Source: an uncultured Bdellovibrionales bacterium | Lineage (GTDB): Bacteria > Bdellovibrionota > Bdellovibrionia > Bdellovibrionales > UBA1609 | Direction: 5' to 3' | DNA length: 64,000 bases | NCBI GenBank assembly: GCA_903833275.1 | Contig: CAILEP010000008.1 | Location: 62,001 to 126,000 of the forward strand | Shown here: positions 16,465 through 48,999 of the stretch, piece after piece | Position numbering within the stretch: the stretch's first letter is position 1 | How the letters are laid out: every line of letters starts with the position of its first letter | Notes under the pieces: generated by a model | What the model was told of the DNA's origin: nothing | Databases searched by the model: none | What the model saw: only the letters and a program-made list of their open reading frames with translations | Translations under genes and position numbers: made by a program

Positions 16465-17661
16465 CTATAAAGATTTTCGACGCAACCGTGCGGCATAAAA
16501 GCCATCGAAATCGGTGTCGAGCGGCGACACGTGAAGCTCTTCTTCGAGTTCAAAGCGCGCAAGGCCGGCCCCTGTATTGGCCTCTAAAAACTCACGCACC
16601 CGCCCCGAATTTTCGGAGGGCAAAATGCTACAAGTGGCATAGACCACTGAGCCGCCAACCTTGGCCATCAAAGAATAACGACTGAGAATATCACGCTGAG
16701 TATCGGCTAAACGATCGAGCTCTGCGGCCTTGAACTTAAACTTGGTGTCAGGGTAACGACGAAGTACACCGAGCCCAGAACAGGGCACATCTAGCAAAAC
16801 GTGATCGGCCGATTCGTGCAGTCGCTTTATAACCTTGGTGCTTTCGATCAGACGAGGCTCGATAATTGAAGCGCCGGCTCGTCGTGAGCGCAAGGTCAGC
16901 TCGTCTAATTTTCGCTGGTGGATATCCATGGCGATAACTCGGCCCTGATTCTTCATCAACATCGCCAGTTGCAACGTTTTACCGCCGGCACCCGCACAAG
17001 CATCGATGACCCGATCACCCGGTTTGACGCCCAATAACGGCGCGATCAGTTGCGAGCCGGCGTCTTGCATTTCAAAAAAGCCTTGCTTAAAGGCCCCAGT
17101 TATAAAAACATTTTTACGCTCAGCCAGCCGCAGAGCGGTTGCAACACTTTCGACGGCCGCGGTTTGAATTTCTTCAGCTCTTAATTTCACACCAAGGCTG
17201 TCACGAGTGGCCTTTAAGGTATTGACGCGCAAAAACTGCGGGGCGCGTTGATTAAGGCGAGTTAAAATTTTGCCTACATCGGCGCCAAGCTCTGACTTCA
17301 AAAGGTCAAATAATTCGTCGGGTATCGACTGCCGAATGGCTTCGGTAGTGGCTTTTGCTTGCAAACTGGGCAGATCAAACCCGTTGAGATATGAGCTAAC
17401 GAGCTGTTCGCAATCGGTTAACGAAATATCACTTGAAAGATCGGCCTTAAGAACCGTCACCAATAGAAGCCGCCACCAGCGCACAATATCATACACAATC
17501 TCGGCAAATTGCCGACGGTCACGCGAACCCCACTTGCGATTTTGCCGCATACAACGCTCGATCACTTTGTCGGCATGGGCACCACCGACAAATATCTCAA
17601 GCAACGCTGCCGCCGCTTCTTTGACAATTGGCTTATGAACCGCTGGTTTTTGATTATTCAT
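16465..17661 (-). CDS. rsmB: 16S rRNA m5C methyltransferase, RsmB/Sun family
   Basis: 398 aa. An N-terminal NusB-like helical domain (about 10-150) is followed by a SAM-dependent RNA m5C methyltransferase domain. Motif I is DACAGAGGKTLQLA, motif IV VLLDVPCSGLGVLRR with one catalytic Cys, and motif VI ATCSILPSEN with the second Cys. FLRVNTLK is the usual substrate-recognition segment. Expected to methylate C967 of 16S rRNA; specificity is inferred from domain architecture. Confidence 0.88.
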   Translation of the reverse strand: MNNQKPAVHKPIVKEAAAALLEIFVGGAHADKVIERCMRQNRKWGSRDRRQFAEIVYDIVRWWRLLLVTVLKADLSSDISLTDCEQLVSSYLNGFDLPSLQAKATTEAIRQSIPDELFDLLKSELGADVGKILTRLNQRAPQFLRVNTLKATRDSLGVKLRAEEIQTAAVESVATALRLAERKNVFITGAFKQGFFEMQDAGSQLIAPLLGVKPGDRVIDACAGAGGKTLQLAMLMKNQGRVIAMDIHQRKLDELTLRSRRAGASIIEPRLIESTKVIKRLHESADHVLLDVPCSGLGVLRRYPDTKFKFKAAELDRLADTQRDILSRYSLMAKVGGSVVYATCSILPSENSGRVREFLEANTGAGLARFELEEELHVSPLDTDFDGFYAARLRRKSL

Positions 17662-22860: not shown

Positions 22861-24717
22861 ATGGACACACAAAAAAGCACACACATAACAACAAGCCGCA
22901 CTCAACAACCTCTTAGTTCAACCCGATCTTTAAAGATGGCCCTTGCCGCAATTAGCAGCCTCTGGCTAATCGGTTGCGGCTCGAGCATCCCTGAAGCCCT
23001 GAAGGTTCACCGTGCTCCATCGAGCGAGAGTGAAGCTGGCAGCGTTGTGGTCGGGCCAACCGAAAGTGACATGGCAAAAATTCTGAACGCCGACTCTCGC
23101 CTCACGGTTCGCGTGGTAAATCAAAATCACAATGTCTATGAAGTTTACGGAGTGAAAACGACTGAGCTTTCAAAAGTTGTCGATCAGCACGCCAACTCTC
23201 TGAGCGTAAGCCGCGATCAAATCACTGTTGAACAAAATGTTTTCATAAAATTAAAAGATCAAACTCCGCAGGCCCTTCAACAACCGCAAGCCGATGCCGC
23301 CGAAAAAGCCAAGAGCCCGTTGGTTGCGGCGATCGAAGAGAACCAAGGCGTCACAATTGAAGGCGCGCCCCTTGAATACTTAAACTCATGCCATTTAAGC
23401 CGACTCGTCGCCCCCGATATCTCGGTTAAAGACAATCAAGGTCGCGACAAACAGAACGCCGGCATTTATTTCGACATTGGCCAAACACTGACCCTTGATG
23501 GCAGTGGCACCAAAGCCAAGGGCAAATCGAAAGCCCCCACTTTGTTGTGGGTGGTTTCACCCTCTGACGATTCGAAATTAACTGCCACAATAAGCATGGG
23601 TAACAATGTTAGTTTTACTCCTGATTCAACAGGCCTTCATATTTACTCAGTAGTGGCAAAAGACGACAGCGGGAATTGCGCAATTCAGATGAAACCATTT
23701 TACGTTACGGCCAATGATCATTTCGCCCCGGCGAGCCCACTCGACGAATCGTGGGCCTCACGAATTGATCCAAAAACTTTTTGGCACGTATTTCATGTTG
23801 GCGCGCGCGACGGCTGGCAAACAGCCGCCGGTGAAGGAATGACTGTTGCCATCATCGACACCGGCGTAAACTACAATCACACGGCACTTTCTTCGAACGT
23901 GCGAGTGAACACTAATGAAATCCCCGAAAATCATGTTGATGACGATAAGAATGGCTTTGTAGATGACGTCACTGGCTACGATTTCGGCAATGACGATGCT
24001 TACCCGTTCGATGATTATGGTCACGGCAGCCACGTAGCTGGTATAGCCGCAAGCCAAGTTTTCGGCGCCGCTCGCAAAGCTAAAATTTTACCGGTTAAAT
24101 TCGGCGCCGGAGTGGGCTTCGATATTGCCTCGGTTGTTGGAGCGATCCACTATAGCGTCGACAACGGAGCTAAAGTTTTAAACATGTCATTCGGTTGGAA
24201 AGAAGACCTCGCGGTTGTTCGTGACGTCATCAATTACACTGAAAAGAAGAATGTGCTCGTTGTGGTAGCGGCAGGCAATGACAGTAAGCCAGGTGCAGTG
24301 GCGGACAATGATACGACGCCGTCGTACCCGTGCAATTACCCCAACGCAAATTTGATTTCAGTTGCGGCTACTGACGAAAACGATGTGCCTACGTTTTACT
24401 CGAATCTCGGCCTCAAGACAGTTCACTTGGCAGCCCCTGGCGGCACTCCGGCGCTACCAATCATTTCGAGCTACAAGAAAAACCCTCGAGATGCACAGTT
24501 TGTTGGTCTCATGGGCACGTCAATGGCCACACCACTTATCGTCGGCGTAGCGGCTCAGGTCTGGAGTGCGAAACCAAGCATGACAGCCCCCGAGCTCAAA
24601 ACTCTGCTAATGCAAACGGGCAAAAAATCTGCGGCACTTCAAGGCAAAATAGCCTCTGGCGCCGTGGTTGATGCCCAAGCGGCACTGGCTGCCATCACTG
24701 GCTCTAGACTTCAGTAG
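22861..24717 (+). CDS. lipoprotein subtilisin-like serine protease (S8)
   Basis: 618 aa from the ATG after the G-run. Lipobox LIGC with Cys39, after an unusually long hydrophilic N-region. An in-frame ATG at residue 26 would give a more normal signal. A prodomain-like region (about 55-180) precedes an Ig-like segment (about 185-285). The subtilase domain has D333 in AIIDTGVNYNH, H388 in DYGHGSHVAG and S554 in GLMGTSMATP. Expected to be an envelope-anchored endopeptidase. Its 3' end is followed by a strong hairpin. Confidence 0.88.
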   Translation: MDTQKSTHITTSRTQQPLSSTRSLKMALAAISSLWLIGCGSSIPEALKVHRAPSSESEAGSVVVGPTESDMAKILNADSRLTVRVVNQNHNVYEVYGVKTTELSKVVDQHANSLSVSRDQITVEQNVFIKLKDQTPQALQQPQADAAEKAKSPLVAAIEENQGVTIEGAPLEYLNSCHLSRLVAPDISVKDNQGRDKQNAGIYFDIGQTLTLDGSGTKAKGKSKAPTLLWVVSPSDDSKLTATISMGNNVSFTPDSTGLHIYSVVAKDDSGNCAIQMKPFYVTANDHFAPASPLDESWASRIDPKTFWHVFHVGARDGWQTAAGEGMTVAIIDTGVNYNHTALSSNVRVNTNEIPENHVDDDKNGFVDDVTGYDFGNDDAYPFDDYGHGSHVAGIAASQVFGAARKAKILPVKFGAGVGFDIASVVGAIHYSVDNGAKVLNMSFGWKEDLAVVRDVINYTEKKNVLVVVAAGNDSKPGAVADNDTTPSYPCNYPNANLISVAATDENDVPTFYSNLGLKTVHLAAPGGTPALPIISSYKKNPRDAQFVGLMGTSMATPLIVGVAAQVWSAKPSMTAPELKTLLMQTGKKSAALQGKIASGAVVDAQAALAAITGSRLQ

Positions 24718-24766
24718 AGGCCAAACTCAAAAAGAGCTACTGGCTCGTAAAATTATGAATGATACT

Positions 24767-24801
24767 AGAAGCACCTTCTGAGAGGTGCTTCTATGTTTTT
24801 T
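24767..24801 (+). terminator. hairpin plus T-run overlapping the next gene's start
   Basis: AGAAGCACCT (24767-24776) and AGGTGCTTCT (24783-24792) form a perfect 10-bp stem with a 6-nt loop. The next gene's ATG follows immediately, then six T (24796-24801). It looks like the intrinsic terminator of the subtilase gene, yet the only ribosome-binding-like sequence of the next gene (AGAGG) is inside the stem. Confidence 0.7.
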
Positions 24802-25530
24802 CGGGCAACAGGCCTTACTGCGTTAACTATTGGTGCTGCTTTAAGTTTTTCGCTTCTATTGCCACCAGTCGCCAATGCCACACTTTTTCAAAACTCGTAC
24901 GTTAGTTTCGAGTTGCCCCCCTCATGGGATTGTAAACTTGATGGCACAGAATGGATTTGCGTTAGTCAGTATGCCAAGCAAGCAAAAGAAGCCATCATCG
25001 TCCTTACGGCCAAAGAAATGGGCCCCAATGACAACCTCCTTAATTACGAAACAAAACTAAAAGCGCCACGACTGCTTGCAGATAAGGGCGGCAAAATGGT
25101 GCCCTCTAAAGTTTTACAAGTGAAACAGAGATTGATTAATAACCATCCCTGGGTTGACTCGCTTCACCTCGGCTCAGAAATTGCGTCTTACTACACGCGC
25201 TACCTCGCGACAGTAAAAGATAAAATCGCCATTCTCATTACGTTCAGTGCCCATCAAGAGCATTACACCAAATACAGCGCCGATTTTCTAAAGGCCGTCG
25301 AGAGCCTTCGCGTGGTTGCGGCCAAAGATATACTTGAGGCGAAGCCCTCGGCCATCCCCCAAAAATCGAATGAGACGATTGGCGCGGCTATCACAGAGCC
25401 CTCGGCGTTTGATGGTGGAGATGCGCCGCCCGAACCCGCAGCTTCAGGTGATTTAAAAACGAAATTAATGGCATTGGCGTTGTTACTTGCTGCAGTCGGT
25501 TTTTATATTTGGCGAAAAAAGAAAAAGTGA
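24793..25530 (+). CDS. secreted protein with C-terminal membrane anchor, paralogue A
   Basis: 245 aa. Signal peptide ending in VANA (about residue 29), a mature domain starting FQNSYVSFELPPSWDC, then a Pro/Ala-rich linker (about 190-220), a C-terminal membrane helix (MALALLLAAVGFYIW) and a RKKKK stop-transfer tail. Shares MGPxDxL, the xWVxSxHLxSEI core and YYTxY with the next gene, so the two arose by tandem duplication. Function unknown; the topology puts the domain in the periplasm or outside. Its start lies in the hairpin described above. Confidence 0.65.
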   Translation: MFFRATGLTALTIGAALSFSLLLPPVANATLFQNSYVSFELPPSWDCKLDGTEWICVSQYAKQAKEAIIVLTAKEMGPNDNLLNYETKLKAPRLLADKGGKMVPSKVLQVKQRLINNHPWVDSLHLGSEIASYYTRYLATVKDKIAILITFSAHQEHYTKYSADFLKAVESLRVVAAKDILEAKPSAIPQKSNETIGAAITEPSAFDGGDAPPEPAASGDLKTKLMALALLLAAVGFYIWRKKKK

Positions 25531-26261
25531 ACAGTTCGAAGAATCGGAAATCTCATATGCTCGCAATAGTCGCAAATTTAATACTTCTCTCATCGCTCTC
25601 TTGGGCCCACCCGCAAACCTTTGGGCCACTTGAATTTGACCTTCCTGAGGGTTGGATGTGCCGCGCTTCAGACGACCACAGCAGTCTTGTTTGCCAAGAT
25701 CAAAAAGAAGGCCCCGAAACATCGGCCATGGTCGTCAATTACAAAGATATGGGCCCCGACGACAAACTCGACATCTATAAGAATCAGCTCGCCCAACCCC
25801 GAATGCTCAAAGATGGCGAGATCACGCAGCCCTCCGAAGTGCGAAGCGTTCGCGAAATCGAACTGAATGGCGTAAAATGGGTTGAAGGCGTCCATCTCTC
25901 ATCTGAGATCACCGACTACTACACCCATTACTTTGTAACGGCAGTCGACCCGTATGCTTTTCTAATATCAATTTCGGTTCACAAAACGGCGTATCCAACA
26001 GATTTTGCCAAACTGAAGCCGACGCTCGATTCGATTCGAATTCTCACTCCGCCGAAAACACCCGCCATTGTAGGCCAGGCCCCGACAGTGGCAACAAGCG
26101 CAGGCCCCGAACCCATTAGCACCGATGACCTTTTAATAAAGCCAAGAGACGATAAAAAATATTTCACTATCGGCGGCTACAGAATTTTGAAGCCCTACGC
26201 GCTACTTGGTATTATTTTTGTGCTAGTGGTATTACTTCTCGGCTACGCCATTCTGGCGTAA
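25527..26261 (+). CDS. secreted protein with C-terminal membrane anchor, paralogue B
   Basis: 244 aa from a GTG overlapping the stop of paralogue A (GTGA); an ATG at 25557 is an alternative. Signal peptide LAIVANLILLSSLSWA, then FGPLEFDLPEGWMC, MGPDDKLDIY, WVEGVHLSSEITDYYTHY matching paralogue A, and a C-terminal hydrophobic helix (LLGIIFVLVVLLLGYAILA) without a polybasic tail. Two Cys near the N-terminus are conserved in both copies. Probably works with paralogue A. Family not recognised. Confidence 0.65.
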   Translation: MNSSKNRKSHMLAIVANLILLSSLSWAHPQTFGPLEFDLPEGWMCRASDDHSSLVCQDQKEGPETSAMVVNYKDMGPDDKLDIYKNQLAQPRMLKDGEITQPSEVRSVREIELNGVKWVEGVHLSSEITDYYTHYFVTAVDPYAFLISISVHKTAYPTDFAKLKPTLDSIRILTPPKTPAIVGQAPTVATSAGPEPISTDDLLIKPRDDKKYFTIGGYRILKPYALLGIIFVLVVLLLGYAILA

Positions 26262-34032: not shown

Positions 34033-34060
34033 AAAAACCCAGCTCGCTGGCTGGGTTTTT
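34033..34060 (-). terminator. intrinsic terminator of rpsA
   Basis: An 11-bp perfect stem (AAAAACCCAGC / GCTGGGTTTTT) with a 6-nt loop. On the minus strand the stem is followed by a T-run (GGGTTTTTTATT). It lies 78 nt beyond the rpsA stop and separates rpsA from the sppA transcription unit. Confidence 0.85.
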
Positions 34061-47548: not shown

Positions 47549-48999
47549 AATTACTAGCAAAGCGCGAAACACTCTACCTGGCCCTCATTACGTTGGCCGC
47601 TGGATTATTTAGGTTCTATAAACTCGATTTTCATTCGCTATGGAGTGACGAACTCACAATCTGGGCTGACACTCAAATTCACCCCTTTTCGGCGATGTTG
47701 AAGTATTTAACTCAAGAAGAGTTGAGCCCACCCGCCTATTGGATTCTTCAATACCCTTTTACTCTTTTTTTAGTACAGAGCGAGTTCGGGGTACGCTTTC
47801 TGGTGGCTCTTCTCGGCACGTTGTCAGTGCCCGCATTGTATTTTACCTCGAGAGAAATCTATTCTAAAGGCGTAAGCTTACTCGCTGCCATTCTGCTGGC
47901 CGTGTCTTTTCAGGGCATCTATTTTAGTCAAGAGGCACGCGCTTATTCTTTAATGATTTTTCTCACCATCGTTTCGACGGGCTTTTGGCTACGCTTGATG
48001 CGCAATCGAGAAACTGCGAAAGGTTCGCTCGCTTGGCTGCCGCTGCTCGGCTACATCATTAGCGCGTCGGTTCTAATGTACACCCATATTTACGGGCTTC
48101 TACTTGTTGGCGCGCAGGGCCTACTCTACCTAACCCAGATTCGAAATCGACACGCACTAAAAGAATGCGCAATCGCCGGTGTCGCCTTGACCGTCCTCTA
48201 TTTGCCCTGGGTGCCTGTAATCCTATCGCAAATGAAACCAATTTCTGTGTGGTTTGGCCCACCAGAATGGATGGACATCTTCTCATACCACAAATTTCTA
48301 TTTGATCGATCGAGCGCATACGCCATAGTTGCAACCCTGCTTATCATTATCTATTTTATTAAAAATCGACGCCATCTTCGATACGAACTTTTACTGCTGG
48401 GTCTCGGAGTCATCCCGTTCGCCATTGCTTTCTGGCGATCGCGAGTGGCTTCGCCAATGCTTTTTGATCGCTACATGCTGATCGCCTTGCCGAGCACCAT
48501 TCTTCTCACGGCACGTGCAACTCTAGCGCTCAGCGAATATTTTGAAGACACACCGGCAAATGCTCGCATAAGACGATGGCTTTCGCTCACGTTTGCCACC
48601 TTATTTGTGGGCATTTGCCTTCACAGCACGATTATCAGAAATAGCTACTACACTGAGCAGCAAAAAGATCAAAACCGCGAGGCCTCTCTCGTATCAATTG
48701 AAATTCGCGACAAATACAAGACCAAGATGTTCGTGGTCGGAAAGTCGGAGCCCATTGTTTCCTACTACTTCCACCGACAAAGTGCGGATACTTCGAAAAA
48801 TATATACCTCCGATATGACTATAAAGATGCCGACCTTGCGAAATTGATATCCGAGTTGCCGTCAGATCATTTCGTTTACCTCTCCTATTCAATGCACATA
48901 GCGCCCAGCAGTCGGCAATGGCTCGAGCAGCACTATAAGCTCGTCGAAGAAAAATTGATCCCACGCTCAAATCATATTTTGGTATTTAAGAAAAACTAA
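47545..48999 (+). CDS. GT-C family glycosyltransferase (ArnT/PMT-like, GT39/GT83)
   Basis: 484 aa with about eleven membrane helices. The first external loop carries the acidic catalytic pair in HSLWSDELTIWAD, then SPPAYWILQYPF and FGVRFLVALLGTLSVPALYF as in ArnT/PMT proteins; YFSQEARAYSL is also typical. A C-terminal soluble domain follows (about 380-484). Transfers a sugar from a polyprenyl-phosphate donor on the periplasmic side. Stop interlocks on CTAA with wecB. Confidence 0.82.
   Translation: MKLLAKRETLYLALITLAAGLFRFYKLDFHSLWSDELTIWADTQIHPFSAMLKYLTQEELSPPAYWILQYPFTLFLVQSEFGVRFLVALLGTLSVPALYFTSREIYSKGVSLLAAILLAVSFQGIYFSQEARAYSLMIFLTIVSTGFWLRLMRNRETAKGSLAWLPLLGYIISASVLMYTHIYGLLLVGAQGLLYLTQIRNRHALKECAIAGVALTVLYLPWVPVILSQMKPISVWFGPPEWMDIFSYHKFLFDRSSAYAIVATLLIIIYFIKNRRHLRYELLLLGLGVIPFAIAFWRSRVASPMLFDRYMLIALPSTILLTARATLALSEYFEDTPANARIRRWLSLTFATLFVGICLHSTIIRNSYYTEQQKDQNREASLVSIEIRDKYKTKMFVVGKSEPIVSYYFHRQSADTSKNIYLRYDYKDADLAKLISELPSDHFVYLSYSMHIAPSSRQWLEQHYKLVEEKLIPRSNHILVFKKN

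Follow-up and report, generated by a model that had tools for sequence, protein, structure and literature searches.

Does a hairpin at the start of a gene end the message of the preceding gene, regulate the gene that it covers, or keep that gene from being translated on RNA that runs in from upstream? This question is raised by a locus of an uncultured Bdellovibrionales species, a relative of the predatory Bdellovibrio, within the window (the whole stretch of DNA analysed, 64,000 nucleotides). Four genes follow one another there: a LysR gene on the reverse strand, the subtilase gene S, gene A and gene B. S is co-directional with A and lies 75 nt upstream, which makes it a possible source of read-through RNA. 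A and B both resemble exported proteins that are anchored in a membrane at the C-terminus, and neither has a match in Pfam. The features of the locus are collected in Table 1.

Table 1. Features at the junction of genes S and A, in window coordinates.
Feature	Position	Strand	Basis or remark
Subtilase gene S	22861..24717	+	Pfam PF00082, E 1e-49; kept upstream of A in the genus
Alternative −10-like box TAAAAT; RNA from it would keep the whole hairpin	24748..24753	+	Matrix score
8-codon ORF MNDTRSTF, stop within the hairpin loop	24755..24781	+	Direct reading
Candidate promoter of A, with the −10-like box GATACT	24761..24766	+	Kept in 4/4 species of the genus
Hairpin, left arm	24766..24777	+	Direct reading, fold, list of terminator-like sites
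Hairpin, right arm, with GAGGTG (24782–24787) and the A of the gene A start codon	24782..24793	+	Fold, opening energies
Gene A, 245 aa, predicted signal peptide and C-terminal membrane anchor	24793..25530	+	Translation
T6 run within the coding sequence of A (two Phe codons), which may serve as a terminator tail	24796..24801	+	T6 in the window species (G000) only
Gene B, paralogue of A, downstream of A	25557..26261	+	36% identity to A, residues 37–176

The hairpin at the start of gene A

Read directly, positions 24766–24801 are TAGAAGCACCTTCTGAGAGGTGCTTCTATGTTTTTT. They form a stem of 12 pairs, 11 of them Watson–Crick and one U–G, around the 4-nt loop CTGA. The original prediction had described a perfect 10-bp stem ending one base before the start codon, with six T directly after it. 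The hairpin is genuine and the observation is confirmed, with two amendments: the stem is slightly longer than claimed and includes a U–G pair, and its right arm pairs the A of the ATG (24793–24795), so that it overlaps the start codon itself. The six T stand where they were placed.

The structure is both stable and rare. Folding of positions 24740–24830 gives −27.6 kcal/mol (z = −3.6), a value equalled in none of 200 shuffles. The window holds two perfect stems of 10 bp or longer with loop lengths of 3–8, compared with a mean of 0.4 (range 0–2) in 10 dinucleotide shuffles. Terminator-like sites as a whole show no excess across the region (23 against 22.7 by chance), and among those listed the gene A hairpin ties for the most pairs.

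Opening the ribosome site of gene A is computed to cost 12.8 kcal/mol, compared with 5.1 in shuffles (p about 0.02). Among 151 gene starts sampled on the same 239-kb contig, all with a ribosome site, this is the second highest value (median 4.0); a single start lies above it (13.9) and two come near (12.7 and 12.5). The stable stem over the ribosome site that a T4-type silencer shows on its long transcript is thus found here by computation. That the hairpin sequesters the ribosome site, as originally proposed, is well supported by the comparison with shuffles, by the rank of the opening energy and its dependence on the 5′ end, and by the enrichment of hidden sites at S-preceded loci described below. 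A translation start well downstream had been named as counter-evidence and is not supported; the sole in-frame start found there is a TTG whose use would remove the signal peptide.

The second of the two perfect stems, at 34033–34060 (AAAAACCCAGC/GCTGGGTTTTT), resembles an ordinary bidirectional terminator. Strongly paired ribosome sites were also seen at other starts of the same contig (C8): at 39817 of the window (plus strand), at 48579 (minus strand; L135) and at 16548 (minus strand; L133). All three have a co-directional gene upstream and may be further cases of the gene A design.

Conservation within the genus

Six genomes of the genus were compared. Four contain the S–A junction; the other two (G002 and G004) are incomplete and have no match to A. 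The stem is found at the gene A start codon in three of the four species, namely the window species (G000), G005 and G001, whose proteins share 56–64% identity. In G005 every pair is kept and one C–G pair has become U–G. The stem of G001 is weaker, with one compensatory change (C–G to U–A) and one U–U mismatch, and its hairpin is no better than shuffles (p = 0.27). G003 has no hairpin. A degenerate motif of the hairpin matches once in each carrier genome, at gene A alone, which rules out a repeated hairpin family.

The bases after the ATG behave differently: T6 in G000 is TTTTTG in G001 and TTTCGG in G005. Since the T-run is not kept with the stem (G005 has TTT only), the conserved feature is the covered start site and not a terminator tail.

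Predicted promoter of gene A and proposed escape from the hairpin

Most of the S–A gap is unalignable in the genus, unlike one short box. GATACT in G000 and G001 corresponds to GATAAT in G005 and G003, 22–26 nt before the ATG, and it is present even in hairpin-less G003 (MAFFT alignment combined with direct reading, since MAFFT offset G001 by ten columns). From this box we predict a transcription start about seven bases further on, at about 24771–24775, inside the left arm; such RNA would be missing half of that arm. The original prediction had listed a start within the stem among the results that would count against it. The conserved box predicts just such a start, which speaks against a simple switch and is at the same time part of the mechanism that we favour.

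By computation, how costly the ribosome site is to open depends on where the RNA begins. With 5′ ends at −40 to −26 it is about 14 kcal/mol and with 5′ ends at −21 to −16 it is 5.3–5.8 kcal/mol, so that about 5 kcal/mol of pairing is left after truncation, slightly above the contig median. These observations, of which those on promoter and RNA are all computed, suggest that the hairpin is a read-through silencer of the kind known from phage T4, built around the promoter of A, a reading to which we give a probability of roughly 0.55. RNA running in from S would carry both arms, and the ribosome site and start codon would be locked in the 12-bp stem; A would not be translated from this RNA. RNA from the promoter of A itself would begin inside the left arm, where about 5 bp could still form, and its ribosome site would open. 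The protein would then be made only when this promoter fires, whatever the state of S. In the window species, the stem and the six U may in addition end part of the S transcripts.

Several results argue for the silencer: the rarity and significance of the stem and the rank of its opening energy, its recurrence at the same place in three of four species with a compensatory change in G001, the retention of the box in all four species independently of the hairpin, and the fall in opening energy for 5′ ends inside the left arm. It is weakened by the pairing that persists after truncation, by the missing hairpin in G003 and the weak one in G001, and by the promoter evidence itself. No good −35 element was found upstream of the GATACT box, and TAAAAT, further upstream, outscores it in a −10 matrix. 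For attack-phase promoters of B. bacteriovorus a FliA-like consensus has been published, TTAAG-N16-CCGATA (PMC3627812). The GATA core of the box fits this consensus as well as it fits a sigma-70 −10 element; no TTAAG at the right distance from GATACT was found by eye in G000.

The competing box leads to the first alternative. If transcription began at TAAAAT, or came only from S, the hairpin would lie in the leader of A, always whole, and translation would be low or regulated, for instance through a small RNA, a protein or ribosomes that read the 8-codon ORF. The higher score of TAAAAT and its distance to the ATG, which is within the usual range of relatives, agree with this, as does the termination of the ORF in the loop. 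The sister species do not have TAAAAT at this position, however, whereas GATA(A/C)T is kept. The ORF lacks a ribosome site and does not occur in G001; it is probably fortuitous, and a leader peptide was rejected. Positions 24600–24950 gave no hit to any Rfam model, those of known riboswitches and leaders included, at E values of 1 or below. Between 10 and 55 °C the opening energy declines from 16.1 to 10.5 kcal/mol, and the ribosome site is too stably paired at all these temperatures for an RNA thermometer. We regard a permanently intact leader hairpin as rather unlikely.

Possible termination of the upstream transcript

Intrinsic terminators and attenuators consist of a stable stem followed by a T-run. 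The window species has both, and the hairpin might be a plain terminator of S that overlaps the start of A by chance, with the hidden ribosome site as a side effect. The d'Aubenton-Carafa score is borderline positive in G000 (+0.5, at the threshold), and a scan of the 75-bp S–A gap found no other terminator. In the two sisters that keep the stem, by contrast, the T-run is lost (G005) or shorter (G001) and the scores are −25.5 and −34.6; a conserved U-run after the stem is therefore missing from the genus. Similarly placed hairpins of other genera likewise have no T-run, and several of them have long loops. The overlap with the next start codon also sets the structure apart from known terminators. 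We consider a plain terminator unlikely.

The proposal that the hairpin stops the subtilase transcript is accordingly weakly supported. The same holds for attenuation: the T-run varies between the sisters and the fold of 24740–24830 showed no competing antiterminator structure, so that an attenuator was rejected. Of the attenuation or translational switch that was first suggested, the hiding of the ribosome site is the part that is well supported.

Relation to known regulatory hairpins

Silencing of read-through RNA by a hairpin, with escape through the gene's own promoter, is best documented in T4-like phages. In T4 gene e (lysozyme), the inhibitory structure of the long early transcripts lowers synthesis of lysozyme 100-fold, and late transcripts are made without its 5′ part (PMC3014915). 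Nested late promoters in gene e and related late genes thereby escape a stem that is present on early read-through RNA (PMC3014915, PMC2988022). Comparable hairpins occur at the T4 genes for I-TevI, I-TevII, I-TevIII and SegB and at MobE of phage Aeh1, where RNA from upstream promoters has its ribosome site hidden and RNA from a gene-adjacent promoter is readable (PMC2988022).

Gene A shares with gene e a ribosome site in the right arm and an upstream transcript that would contain the whole stem; with its predicted promoter at or within the left arm, RNA begun there should be without the stem's 5′ part. Given this promoter, the layout is also that of the I-TevI, I-TevII, I-TevIII, SegB and MobE hairpins. 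Unlike gene e, A lies on a bacterial chromosome without a known timing cascade, and in the window species a T-run follows the stem. Unlike the homing endonuclease genes, A encodes a widely conserved, predicted exported protein. A would on this analysis work like the T4-type silencers; membership of the class hinges on the transcription starts, which are here predicted. In the papers covered, our literature search found no chromosomal case of a hairpin built around a promoter in this way, and one may nevertheless exist. If the silencer reading is right, expression of A would be overestimated from RNA-seq coverage.

Gene A starts across the order

Orthologues of A are present in 123 of the 127 Bdellovibrionales genomes searched. 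Many genomes, the Bdellovibrio-like ones among them, have no S at this place, and LysR is directly divergent from A. For 101 A loci, the opening cost in an RNA from −70 to +20 was set against that of 100 controls in which the upstream part had been dinucleotide-shuffled. Neighbours were classed strictly, on the presence of a LysR or subtilase motif. The start codons and ribosome sites of the relatives were set by rule and partly by hand.

A hidden ribosome site (p ≤ 0.05) was found at 7 of the 19 S-preceded loci with a recognisable ribosome site and at 1 of 45 LysR-divergent loci. The mean excess opening energy is +2.8 kcal/mol in the former and −0.6 kcal/mol in the latter (Mann–Whitney p = 3e-4 by locus, 0.006 averaged by genus). 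The excess of pairing peaks at the ribosome site, as computed with older neighbour classes in which L025 and L009 are misplaced and L007 and L023 stand as 'other'. The seven hidden-site loci span six genera, and outside the window genus their hairpins are unrelated in sequence. Five of the seven (L005, L024, L077, L011 and L008) carry a −10 box, placed between the arms or at the left arm's inner end, and it is a perfect TATAAT in L077; a terminator scan found no T-run terminator in these five. As a general feature, strong −10 boxes are enriched upstream of A: among co-directional loci that have a ribosome site, 14 of 22 carry one, where 3.8 were expected.

The contrast between the classes, the boxes between the arms and the peak at the ribosome site all support the silencer reading. 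Against it, sister species in the genera g10 and g23 do not have the hairpin in common, and the neighbour classes largely coincide with clades, the LysR-divergent loci belonging mostly to another clade; the evidence for selection on the design is suggestive and not strong. A structure that is neutral or arose by chance, and does nothing to expression, would fit the fast turnover between sister species and the rivalling starts of the same contig, but a rare stem at the same place in three species of such protein divergence, together with the contrast between S-preceded and LysR-divergent loci, makes it improbable.

S-preceded loci that have no ribosome site offer a second arrangement. A −10 box exactly six bases before the ATG occurs at 8 of 13 such loci and at none of the 19 with a ribosome site, and many of these relatives look leaderless at A. 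A tentative extension, which we hold to be possible and no more, is that Bdellovibrionales repeatedly evolved translation of A below S from its own promoter only, either with arms flanking the −10 box or with a leaderless start and the −10 box 6 nt before the ATG. If this were true, a bacterial core gene would have been insulated convergently from read-through, and the hairpin of the window species would also end the upstream message. Recurrence of read-through silencing in a bacterial order, in dependence on the upstream gene, would provide a natural experiment on the independence of adjacent transcription units.

Individual loci show further arrangements. In L024, the gap before the ATG of MRTHII contains a 14-bp perfect inverted repeat, TTCTCCATAATGTG/CACATTATGGAGAA, with the ribosome site in its right arm; the six bases of the loop are the −10-like TAAAAT. 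In L014, L015, L018, L038, L039, L040, L085 and L088 a −10-like hexamer ends exactly 6 nt ahead of the A start codon and a ribosome site is lacking; their A mRNA is probably leaderless. In genus g38 (L102–L105, L107, L109, L111, L117, L118 and L120) a conserved TTATTATA, mostly ACT, stands about 25–40 nt before A; with LysR divergent, it is likely to be the promoter of A in Bdellovibrio. Finally, in genus g19 (L074, L075 and L078) A follows a different gene, of which about 149 codons were seen. With its stop codon abutting or overlapping the ATG, and no ribosome site present, A is likely to be translationally coupled to this preceding gene.
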